Origin: Pycnococcus provasolii
Lineage: Eukaryota > Chlorophyta > Pseudoscourfieldiophyceae > Pseudoscourfieldiales > Pycnococcaceae
Length of the DNA stretch: 64,000 bases
NCBI GenBank assembly: GCA_938743325.2
Contig: OW568885.1
Coordinates: 248,001-312,000, forward strand
Reading direction: 5' to 3'
Of the stretch, positions 1,052 to 4,513 are shown in pieces. Made by a program: the position numbers and the translations under genes. The notes under the pieces were generated by a model. That model was not told the origin of the DNA and did no database searches. It saw nothing but the letters and a program-made list of their open reading frames with translations. Each line of letters opens with the position of its first letter. Position 1 is the stretch's first letter.

Positions 1052-4000
1052 TCAAAGAAAACCGCCTTCACCACCTCCCGTTACCGTCTCCGGTAAGAGC
1101 TTAAAGCTCATCGCGAATGACGCGCGGGCTTCCTGCTCGCGCTCGTCGTACGAGAGCGAGTTCCACCACTCATTCCACGCATCAAAGCCTAGGATCTCGC
1201 GCGTGAGAATCCCGTGAATCTCCTGCTGCTCCTCCGTCCATGTGAGCAGTGTGCCAGCCTTGACCAGGTATATGCGCCCACACCACAAGAACCATGCTGG
1301 CGCGCCAACGCTCAGCACGATGGTCAGCGTGCCTTTCGTCTTCGGATCCCAATGCGGATAATGATAAAAGCTGTTCAAGTTCAGTTGAGCGCGAACAAAA
1401 TCGCCGCACTTGAAGTGCTTCTGTATAGCCTTGATGACTGCCGACAAGCCGGGAAACTTGTCAAAGCTGGAGGTGGGGTAAAATAGCATCTTGGATCGTG
1501 TGCTATATCGCGACGCTCGTCGCGCAAAGCGCGTGGATGTATACATCTCGGCCATGATCCATGGAGGCACGTCCATGTGGGTTTGGTGCATCTGGCCGAG
1601 TGGTACCCGAGGTTGCGCGCCGTTGTTGTAGCGTTGCACTGCACCCTCGCGATGCGGCTCGTCGTTGTTGGCGCTGTTGCTGTTGCCGTTGTTGTTGCCG
1701 TTGATGTACGATCGATTCGGAAGGATAATCTCATGTGCAATCTCACATGACTTTTCGTCGTTTGTGGGACGTCGAATGATTGGTGGAGTTTTTGGGAGAG
1801 ATGGTGCGGCCCACCACTCCTTCTGGCTCTTCAGGCCGAGCGTGCGCACGTACGCGCACGCATTCTCGAAGCTGCGATATTCGCCAGCCACCTTGCCCTC
1901 CGCGTATCCGAGGAAGTCGCCCCAAGACGTCCAGCCTGATGACGCGTACGTCCTTTGAGGATTGCTCGGCATATCGTGCGGACGTGCACCTGACGAACTC
2001 CACGCTTGCCACTCCTCCTGGCTCTTCAGGCCGAGCGTGCGCACGTACGCGCACGCATTCTCGAAGCTGCGATATTCGCCAGCCACCTTGCCCTCCGCGT
2101 ATCCGAGGAAGTCGCCCCAAGACGTCCAGCCTGATGACGCGTACGTCGTATGAGGATGGCCCGGAATGTCGGGCGGTCGCTTGCCTGACGCACTCCACGC
2201 ATTCCACTCCTTTGCGCTCTTCAGACCAAGCGTGCGCACGTACGTGCGCGCATCCTCGAAGCTGCGAAACGAGCCTGCCACCTTGCCCTCCGCGTATCCG
2301 AGGAAGTCGCCGTACGACGTCCAGCCTGATGACGCGTACGTCACATAAGGATTGCTCGGTATGTCGTGCGGACGCGCGCCTGACGATCTCCACGTCTCCC
2401 ACTCCTTTGCGCTCTTCAGACCAAGCGTGCGCACGTACGTGCGCGCATCCTCGAAGCTGCGAAACGCCCCGCGCGTTTTCTTGGCAACCCTGACGCCGGC
2501 GTGCGTTAAGCTGTCGCATGAAGTTTCAGCAGGGTCACGTTTCCTCTTCCGTGCAGAAGCAGAAGAAGCAGAACCATCCTTATCCTGGATCTTCGCCTTG
2601 ACGTTGTCGATGGTGTCGCTGGACTCCACCTCAAGCGTGATGGTCTTCCCCGTGAGCGTCTTCACGAAGATCTGCATCGCCTTGACGATGTCGATGCCTC
2701 CGCGAAGGCGCAGCACCAGGTGGAGCGTGCTCTCCTTTTGGATGTTGTAGTCGGCGAGCGTGCGTCCGTCCTCGAGCTGTTTTCCTGCAAAGATAAGGCG
2801 CTGCTGGTCCGCTAGGATGCCATCCTTATCCTGGATCTTCGCCTTGACGTTGTCGATGGTGTCGCTGGACTCCACCTCAAGCGTGATGGTCTTCCCCGTG
2901 AGCGTCTTCACGAAGATCTGCATCGCCTTGACGATGTCGATGCCTCCGCGAAGGCGCAGCACCAGGTGGAGCGTGCTCTCCTTTTGGATGTTGTAGTCGG
3001 CGAGCGTGCGTCCGTCCTCGAGCTGTTTTCCTGCAAAGATAAGGCGCTGCTGGTCCGCTAGGATGCCATCCTTATCCTGGATCTTCGCCTTGACGTTGTC
3101 GATGGTGTCGCTGGACTCCACCTCAAGCGTGATGGTCTTCCCCGTGAGCGTCTTCACGAAGATCTGCATCGCCTTGACGATGTCGATGCCTCCGCGAAGG
3201 CGCAGCACCAGGTGGAGCGTGCTCTCCTTTTGGATGTTGTAGTCGGCGAGCGTGCGTCCGTCCTCGAGCTGTTTTCCTGCAAAGATAAGGCGCTGCTGGT
3301 CCGCTAGGATGCCATCCTTATCCTGGATCTTCGCCTTGACGTTGTCGATGGTGTCGCTGGACTCCACCTCAAGCGTGATGGTCTTCCCCGTGAGCGTCTT
3401 CACGAAGATCTGCATCGCCTTGACGATGTCGATGCCTCCGCGAAGGCGCAGCACCAGGTGGAGCGTGCTCTCCTTTTGGATGTTGTAGTCGGCGAGCGTG
3501 CGTCCGTCCTCGAGCTGTTTTCCTGCAAAGATAAGGCGCTGCTGGTCCGCTAGGATGCCATCCTTATCCTGGATCTTCGCCTTGACGTTGTCGATGGTGT
3601 CGCTGGACTCCACCTCAAGCGTGATGGTCTTCCCCGTGAGCGTCTTCACGAAGATCTGCATCGCCTTGACGATGTCGATGCCTCCGCGAAGGCGCAGCAC
3701 CAGGTGGAGCGTGCTCTCCTTTTGGATGTTGTAGTCGGCGAGCGTGCGTCCGTCCTCGAGCTGTTTTCCTGCAAAGATAAGGCGCTGCTGGTCCGCTAGG
3801 ATGCCATCCTTATCCTGGATCTTCGCCTTGACGTTGTCGATGGTGTCGCTGGACTCCACCTCAAGCGTGATGGTCTTCCCCGTGAGCGTCTTCACGAAGA
3901 TCTGCATCGCCTTGACGATGTCGATGCCTCCGCGAAGGCGCAGCACCAGGTGGAGCGTGCTCTCCTTTTGGATGTTGTAGTCGGCGAGCGTGCGTCCGTC

Positions 4001-4513
4001 CTCGAGCTGTTTTCCTGCAAAGATAAGGCGCTGCTGGTCCGCTAGGATGCCATCCTTATCCTGGATCTTCGCCTTGACGTTGTCGATGGTGTCGCTGGAC
4101 TCCACCTCAAGCGTGATGGTCTTCCCCGTGAGCGTCTTCACGAAGATCTGCATCGCCTTGACGATGTCGATGCCTCCGCGAAGGCGCAGCACCAGGTGGA
4201 GCGTGCTCTCCTTTTGGATGTTGTAGTCGGCGAGCGTGCGTCCGTCCTCGAGCTGTTTTCCTGCAATGGATGTGAAGTGGTGGGATGGGATGTGCTGTGA
4301 TGTGAGGGAACACGGGGCAAGGGGGGTGCTTGGGGGCAAAAAGAAGGGGCAGGCAGGCAGGGGGGAGTGCTGGTGTGACATTGAAGTGACATTGCCACGG
4401 TGGACCAAACTTTCTGACCAAACCAAAACCGCAAAAAACAGACAGAGGGAGCAGGCCTCCGAAGCGACACCCTCCCCGGCTGTAACCCTAACCACCCCCT
4501 GAAACCCTAACAC
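1052..4513 (-). CDS. Polyubiquitin / integrase-repeat-unit / AlkB-like fusion protein
   Basis: One uninterrupted frame; residues are counted from its first Met. The order is: a half ubiquitin (residues 46-76 of ubiquitin) just before residue 121; six full ubiquitin units starting at 121, 203, 285, 367, 449 and 531; a truncated unit at 613-647; a basic NLS-like linker (RKRKRD); three 65-residue modules at 684-878 with a partial fourth (FRSFEDAR...LGLKS..EW...[10 protein letters not shown]), the type called phage-integrase repeat unit and known from algae and giant viruses; an Asn-rich linker; and an AlkB-like 2OG-Fe(II) oxygenase domain from about 985. The oxygenase has HWD at 1054-1056, a second His near 1100 and a terminal SFAMSFKLL strand. 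The arginines that normally bind 2-oxoglutarate look replaced by Ser/Lys, so activity is uncertain. The start is unresolved: residues 1-118 are low complexity with CCCTAA motifs, and the sequence before the half unit looks like an intron acceptor (CATTGCAG). The first complete ubiquitin Met is at 4153. Confidence 0.75.
2677..4267 (-). repeat. Tandem 246-bp ubiquitin-coding repeats
   Basis: Unit starts (Met codons) lie at 4153, 3907, 3661, 3415, 3169, 2923 and 2677. The six full units appear identical in DNA. Each encodes 76 ubiquitin residues followed by the hexapeptide IDIVKA, giving 82 codons. Relative to canonical ubiquitin the unit has P19S, E24D, E34D, P37L, P38A and S57A. All seven lysines, the L8/I44/V70 patch and the C-terminal GG are kept. 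A half unit at each end (46-76 on the 5' side, 1-35 on the 3' side, the latter running down to about 2573) marks the edges of the array. The identity suggests recent unequal crossing-over or gene conversion. Confidence 0.9.

Follow-up and report, generated by a model that had tools for sequence, protein, structure and literature searches.

The question raised by this locus is how one open reading frame came to hold ubiquitin units, a basic linker, integrase-type repeats and a further C-terminal domain, and whether such a frame is likely to be a working gene. The window, i.e. the whole stretch of 64,000 nucleotides that was analysed, comprises bases 248001-312000 of contig OW568885.1 (GCA_938743325.2), here named C25, and the searched genome consists of 32.3 Mb in 46 contigs; the names C1-C44 refer to contigs of this same genome. 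Eukaryotic genes, apparent introns and a protein that matches light-harvesting proteins of algae are present in it, which makes an algal genome very likely. An open frame on the minus strand, 1052-4513, extends over 1153 codons, and the description given in an earlier note, a single frame joining ubiquitins, basic linker, repeats and C-terminal domain, was confirmed, with eight ubiquitin stretches found by Pfam and the repeats recovered by TRF. Six identical ubiquitin units and two part-units are followed in the frame by a basic linker, then by 3.5 integrase-type repeats, and last by a C-terminal domain showing the pattern H-x-D...H...R. The following features were distinguished.

4265-5192, minus strand: borrowed 5' flank, presumably promoter and 5' UTR, which takes in the frame's first 82 codons (4513-4268) and matches sequence lying upstream of a C12 gene (L057, as far as 5094) and of a C7 gene (L058, as far as 5192).
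4154-4266, minus strand: 5' part-unit, holding ubiquitin from roughly residue 46 up to Gly76 and then IDIVKA; outside the translated part if translation begins at the first ATG past the junction (TRF array limit 4266; offset of the first unit).
2678-4153, minus strand: six identical 246-bp units, each a ubiquitin of 76 aa (E34D, P37L, P38A) plus IDIVKA, with the likely start ATG at 4153 (one distinct sequence; Pfam ubiquitin).
2574-2677, minus strand: 3' part-unit, ubiquitin residues 1-35, cut (TRF limit 2574; translation).
2550-2573, minus strand: 24-bp filler, a SASSASA-type linker for which no donor was found, outside both the ubiquitin match and the C12, C39 and C17 linker matches.
2471-2549, minus strand: basic linker, the native N-terminal part of a repeat gene (88-bp match, 98% to C12:456285-456372, 95% to C39, 93% to C17).
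1810-2470, minus strand: 3.5 integrase-type repeats with a period of 195 bp (TRF; 69-80% protein identity to eight paralogous stretches).
1055-1809, minus strand: C-terminal block of C16 type with a putative 2OG-Fe(II) oxygenase-like domain; H 1354-1352, D 1348-1346, H 1216-1214 and R 1141-1139, invariant in three aligned sequences (88% DNA identity with C16 over 986-1809).
986-1054, minus strand: stop codon and 3' flank in common with the C16 gene (BLASTN, pairwise alignment).

From 4153 to 1055 there is no stop in 1033 codons, while the other two frames of the same strand hold 26 and 24, and ubiquitin and its foreign partners thus lie in one uninterrupted frame. The three coding blocks (array, linker with repeats, tail) all keep the native frames of their sources; for frame agreement alone at two joins the chance is about 1 in 9. 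The GC content at third positions is 0.85 in the array, 0.74 in the repeats and 0.65 in both the tail and the 5' flank part, with 0.68 in the neighbouring long frame. For four segments the genome itself contains source families, namely C12/C7 for the 5' flank, polyubiquitin for the unit, the repeat genes (nearest C12) for linker and repeats and the C16 type for the 3' part, these being relatives of the donors and not the exact donor copies, and the suggestion in the earlier note of a recent chimera still settling is well supported by them.

When comparing the 5' region with the genome, window 4265-5094 was found to match the flank upstream of the C12 gene with 734 of 766 aligned bases identical and 4265-5192 that of the C7 gene with 783 of 824, gaps not counted, which corresponds to 95-96% of the aligned bases, or 79% with gaps counted. 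Most indels within the reported frame are not multiples of three (14 of 17 against C12, 14 of 14 against C7), and since codons 4513-4268 lie in this shared flank with its frame-breaking indels, the first 82 residues of the frame as originally described have to be dropped from the protein. The apparent start codon lies about 50 bases past the end of the flank match in C12 and about 25 in C7, and in the window the first ATG past the junction, at 4153, supplies Met1 to the first complete ubiquitin; the in-frame ATG at 4381 falls within the borrowed flank, as do the upstream ATGs. A search of 4267-6745 for an upstream exon that would code for ubiquitin residues 1-45 revealed none. The likeliest start, judged from the sequence, is 4153, which would give a protein of 1033 aa. 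The two genes with this flank, L057 (C12:312001) and L058 (C7:277220), are a near-identical duplicated pair whose own 5' flank resembles the one captured by the window gene, and a Pfam scan of the L057 product gave no match. Short chromosome-internal stretches of CCCTAA/TTAGGG type were also seen, at window positions 4490-4540, 16428-16470, 33463-33519, 40098-40154 and 42418-42454.

In the ubiquitin array Pfam (PF00240) gave eight stretches with a total of 634.8 bits (E 7.5e-196) against a cut-off of 25.4. The six full units are letter-identical copies of 246 bp (TRF: 6.9 copies at 100%) and differ from the ordinary ubiquitin of the genome by E34D, P37L, P38A and by IDIVKA, six residues long, inserted between Gly76 and the Met that follows; the ubiquitin lysines, Ile44 and the RLRGG end are retained. 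The 18 bases of the spacer are identical at 17 positions to ubiquitin codons 23-28, a score reached by none of 20000 random 18-mers of the window against the same unit, and the simplest reading is that the spacer is apparently a templated copy of ubiquitin residues 23-28. The nearest other ubiquitin unit, in C6, differs with Ks 0.363 and Ka 0.017, and Ka/Ks against 11 other units, that of the C2 fusion described below included, is 0.04-0.13; these being comparisons of paralogue with paralogue, the constraint is not datable relative to the fusion and may predate it. The values argue for a unit that has long been under ubiquitin-type constraint, possibly before the fusion, and that was multiplied later.

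Directly before the foreign partner there is no complete Gly-Gly, the last unit stopping at residue 35. The remark in the earlier note that the tail would keep a half-ubiquitin at its start is right, but release would still be possible at the Gly-Gly of the sixth unit. In the same genome a C31 locus (L027 1809-2171) carries a ubiquitin and, continuing in the same frame, another unit with 55% identity over residues 3-42, which we take to resemble NEDD8; a further piece lies close by. A different tandem array, in which a 117-bp unit (39 codons) recurs 6.7 times with 82% match, is situated at window 47380-48163 inside a minus-strand open frame.

Downstream of the cut ubiquitin and the 24-bp filler, the 88-bp linker match (98% to C12, 95% to C39, 93% to C17) shows the linker to be the original N-terminal portion of a repeat gene. 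Of the family to which the window's repeats belong, at least 132 matches in at least 52 clusters were counted genome-wide, and for the survey the window and 15 further repeat frames, falling in 14 of the 52 clusters, were inspected, seven of the 15 with Pfam and the remaining eight by eye. PF14882 ('Integrase repeat unit', cut-off 26.5 bits) was exceeded in five of the seven, C29 (86.9 bits), C2 at 154 kb (55.5), C26 (50.6), C44 (41.6) and C12 (39.6), and the other two fell below it (C5, 26.2; C2 at 1254 kb, 19.2). The window protein itself gave no match to PF14882 up to E 1, and a search of the whole genome returned two single-repeat matches, the best of 22.0 bits, none over the cut-off and neither in the window. 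The earlier assignment to integrase-repeat modules is thus kept by way of the paralogues with long arrays, to which the window repeats are 69-80% identical in protein (eight aligned stretches), and not through a match of the window's own repeats.

The nearest repeat relative is in C12, with Ka/Ks 0.46 (0.30-0.68) over the repeat region, again between paralogues, and for five pairs of repeats inside the window the ratio ranged over 0.42-1.27, the intervals being wide; any constraint on the repeats appears weak on these alignments. A model of the repeats (pLDDT 71) is all helical with four helices per repeat, and Foldseek searches with it gave no match below E 2.7. The family is tabled, with a low score beside it, among modelled repeat families lacking a solved structure (PMC8078820, the part available), and literature searches found almost nothing else in print on it.

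As for the company kept by such repeats, those of the C5 frame share a protein with a ResIII helicase that passes its Pfam cut-off. Among the 15 repeat frames the other partners are ubiquitin ahead of the repeats in one (C2) and a sub-threshold RING in one (C29); in the other four of the seven scanned paralogues, apart from the C2 fusion, C5 and C29, PF14882 is the only family with a stretch passing on its own. The C29 gene (L030 2547-7169) has twenty integrase-type repeats followed by the RING-like stretch (E 0.0041), a possible link to ubiquitin ligases. Outside the genome relatives were found in three viral contigs (L022, L064, L065) and four phage records, and of five such proteins scanned with Pfam those of L022 and L064 pass PF14882 whereas those of L065, XacN1 and RAS14 do not. 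L022 4614-5924, from an IMG/VR contig, combines three Pfam stretches of the repeats with an HNH endonuclease domain. The large phages XacN1 and RAS14 (L066 1282-2211, L067 1093-2220) hold distant relatives at 31-34% identity, hypothetical proteins with no Pfam family over its cut-off. Neither ubiquitin nor PF13532 was seen by Pfam in these five proteins, neighbouring frames having been only glanced at.

The C-terminal part derives from a source of C16 type, which supplies the last 251 codons, the stop and the 3' flank; the 88% match to the C16 gene, 986-1809, includes the stop and about 66 bp of 3' flank. Divergence is unevenly distributed, with 1 synonymous and 2 nonsynonymous differences in the last 102 codons but Ks 0.449 and Ka/Ks 0.335 (95% 0.20-0.55) in the preceding 149, and Ks 0.657 and Ka/Ks 0.219 (95% 0.09-0.46) in the 80 of these that belong to the domain, all values again of paralogue against paralogue. 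This contrast suggests gene conversion at the 3' end of the tail, and because the last 102 codons are nearly identical to those of C16 they carry little information on selection after the fusion. A broken copy of the C16-type gene is located about 22 kb from the intact one (L029, C16:722001-726500).

The earlier note had taken the C-terminal domain for an AlkB-like oxygenase. The residues H92, D94, H138 and R163 (numbered from 1627) are invariant in the three sequences compared (window, C16 and C1), and we take them to be the 2OG-Fe(II) ligand and 2OG-binding positions. Beyond this pattern the AlkB family PF13532 (cut-off 31.2 bits) was reached only below threshold and only by the C1 paralogue (18.7 bits, E 0.0022); the window protein and C16 gave no match to it up to E 10, with HMMER filters that discard most weak matches, and the window protein is not among the 11 matches over the cut-off in the genome. 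When the C-terminal family was aligned by hhalign with four PF13532 stretches of its own genome the probability was 0.2, though the H-x-D and H columns align, and an unrelated repeat alignment used as control gave 0.5, which lends no support to AlkB. An HMM of the same four stretches was equalled by 74 of 500 shuffles for the window, 64 of 500 for C16 and 94 of 500 for C1; it did slightly better on C13 (6 of 500). A check of the C-terminal residues against AlkB, proposed in the earlier note, gave a low-confidence AlphaFold model and profile results no better than the controls. Fold matches obtained with that poor model were set aside.

PDB sequence searches with the tail returned nothing relevant, Pfam listed no 2OG family besides PF13532, although absence from these lists excludes no such family, and NCBIfam and PHROGs gave no 2OG match. 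The C1 paralogue has a weak HNH match in PHROGs (E 0.0098), and the N-termini of the C16 and C1 paralogues, which look AP2-like, were not supported as such by Pfam. Scans seeded with short conserved peptides found no relatives of the domain in viral contigs or prokaryote genomes, nor did tblastn of the C1 paralogue against phages. From its motif pattern the tail is likely, although unproven, to be 2OG-Fe(II) oxygenase-like; an AlkB-like fold is plausible, all tests of it having stayed below threshold.

Ubiquitin and repeat matches occur by position in one frame only in C25 and C2. The C2 frame holds a full ubiquitin, then GKKRKKKVYTKPKE as at the start of the S27a part of the genome, then repeats, a proline stretch and an unknown domain, and it extends upstream through kelch repeats in one long open frame (L023 7267-9999); here the Gly-Gly is in place ahead of the partner. 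As both the ubiquitin and the joins differ from those of the window, the C2 fusion looks like an independent event. A further fusion in the genome, in C16 (L033 1410-2432), links ubiquitin to a nickel superoxide dismutase, both parts being over their Pfam cut-offs.

On balance, and with modest confidence, we favour a young chimera of at least four source families from its own genome, which would be transcribed, translated from 4153 and have its array cut by ubiquitin proteases. A promoter/5' UTR block, a polyubiquitin unit, the repeats of a PF14882-type gene with their N-terminal linker, and a C16-type 3' part would have been assembled within the genome, the polyubiquitin unit being multiplied after its capture. 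Transcription would start from the captured flank and translation from the first ATG past the junction. Ubiquitin proteases cleave after Gly76; cutting after each Gly76 of the array would yield six ubiquitin-like monomers, all but one starting with IDIVKA, and release a tail made up of IDIVKA, ubiquitin residues 1-35, basic linker, 3.5 repeats and oxygenase-like domain. We would expect this tail to be a nuclear protein acting on DNA or RNA, nucleic-acid targets being suggested by the repeat relatives that share a protein with a helicase (C5) and with HNH (L022). Isoleucine at the N-terminus is a destabilising residue in the N-end rule, and the tail could consequently be short-lived. On the defence-type role suggested in the earlier note, the analysis came upon evidence neither in favour of it nor contradicting it.

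The main rival holds that the mosaic DNA is real but the chimera dead, the frame being open only through its coding sources and recent joins and no functional protein being made; this is possible, though we doubt it. The near-identity of the last 102 codons to C16 and of the aligned bases of the 5' flank to their relatives, which points to youth or conversion, would fit it, as would a ubiquitin part cut mid-domain at both ends of the array and the broken copy showing that the C16-type family does decay. It has more difficulty with two joins that are both in frame, with the capture of both a 5' flank and a 3' end, and with the lack of any stop in 1033 codons despite a Ks of 0.66 to C16 in part of the C-terminal domain. 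Quite improbable is a division into two genes, where the array is processed as a divergent polyubiquitin and the repeat-oxygenase part has a separate transcript: an apparent intron follows residue 33 in the polyubiquitin gene of C6, near the cut at residue 35 in the window, but no stop codon follows the array, and the linker, which contains no Met, corresponds to an internal stretch of a repeat gene. That the assembly has fused unrelated sequence is highly improbable, for although assemblies are known to go wrong at identical tandem units, such as make up this array, the frame is kept across the joins, one of which contains filler, and all blocks show divergence from their closest relatives in the genome.

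If the young, expressed chimera is taken further, the lineage may repeatedly capture ubiquitin as a tag for the processing or stability of integrase-repeat proteins, the tag having been multiplied in the window and the tail being a short-lived nuclear nucleic-acid oxygenase guided by the repeats; this wider proposal, drawn from C25 and from the apparently independent C2 case with its ubiquitin-S27a start, we consider unlikely as a whole. The locus appears to be a snapshot of a gene being built, with relatives of the four pieces still in the genome and joins readable nearly to the base, and an insert that looks templated is a hint of template switching. The origin of multi-domain proteins and of ubiquitin fusions thereby becomes open to direct tests in a single organism, and a large integrase-repeat family has been brought to light.

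Compared with known systems, the gene shares with the fusion that presumably bears the name L40 an N-terminal ubiquitin and a Gly-Gly ahead of a partner; it differs in that its partner follows a ubiquitin truncated at residue 35, which places the nearest cut site one unit upstream. With PF14882 proteins it has in common the repeats of the paralogues that pass the Pfam cut-off, and it differs in having only 3.5 of them, foreign parts at both ends and no PF14882 match itself. With the AlkB-like oxygenases of PF13532 the H-x-D...H...R pattern is common, the C1 paralogue matching below threshold and the window protein having no match. The closest parallel is found in two algae, Bigelowiella natans and Guillardia theta, for which, in the parts of the paper that were available, 22 and 10 ubiquitin fusion genes are reported, some with truncated or multiple ubiquitins and with RNA-seq support (Sibbald et al. 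2019, PMC6332867). These likewise begin with ubiquitin or polyubiquitin, some of it truncated or of 1.5-2.5 units, and continue in frame into unrelated partners, and the ubiquitin-NiSOD fusion treated there also occurs in the genome of the window. Unlike them, the window gene has integrase-type repeats and a putative oxygenase as partners, and six identical units with a six-residue spacer; no such partner is named in the tables of that paper, where some are given as 'hypothetical protein', and its main text contains none of the words 'integrase', 'AlkB' and 'oxygenase'. The earlier note knew of no described protein with this combination of parts; the combination is likewise absent from the partners named in that paper, which already describes ubiquitin fusions with truncated units. 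On this comparison the window gene belongs among the algal ubiquitin fusion genes (PMC6332867), with partners that are not named there, and what is special to it is its readable four-source origin, its captured 5' flank and 3' end, and its spacer.
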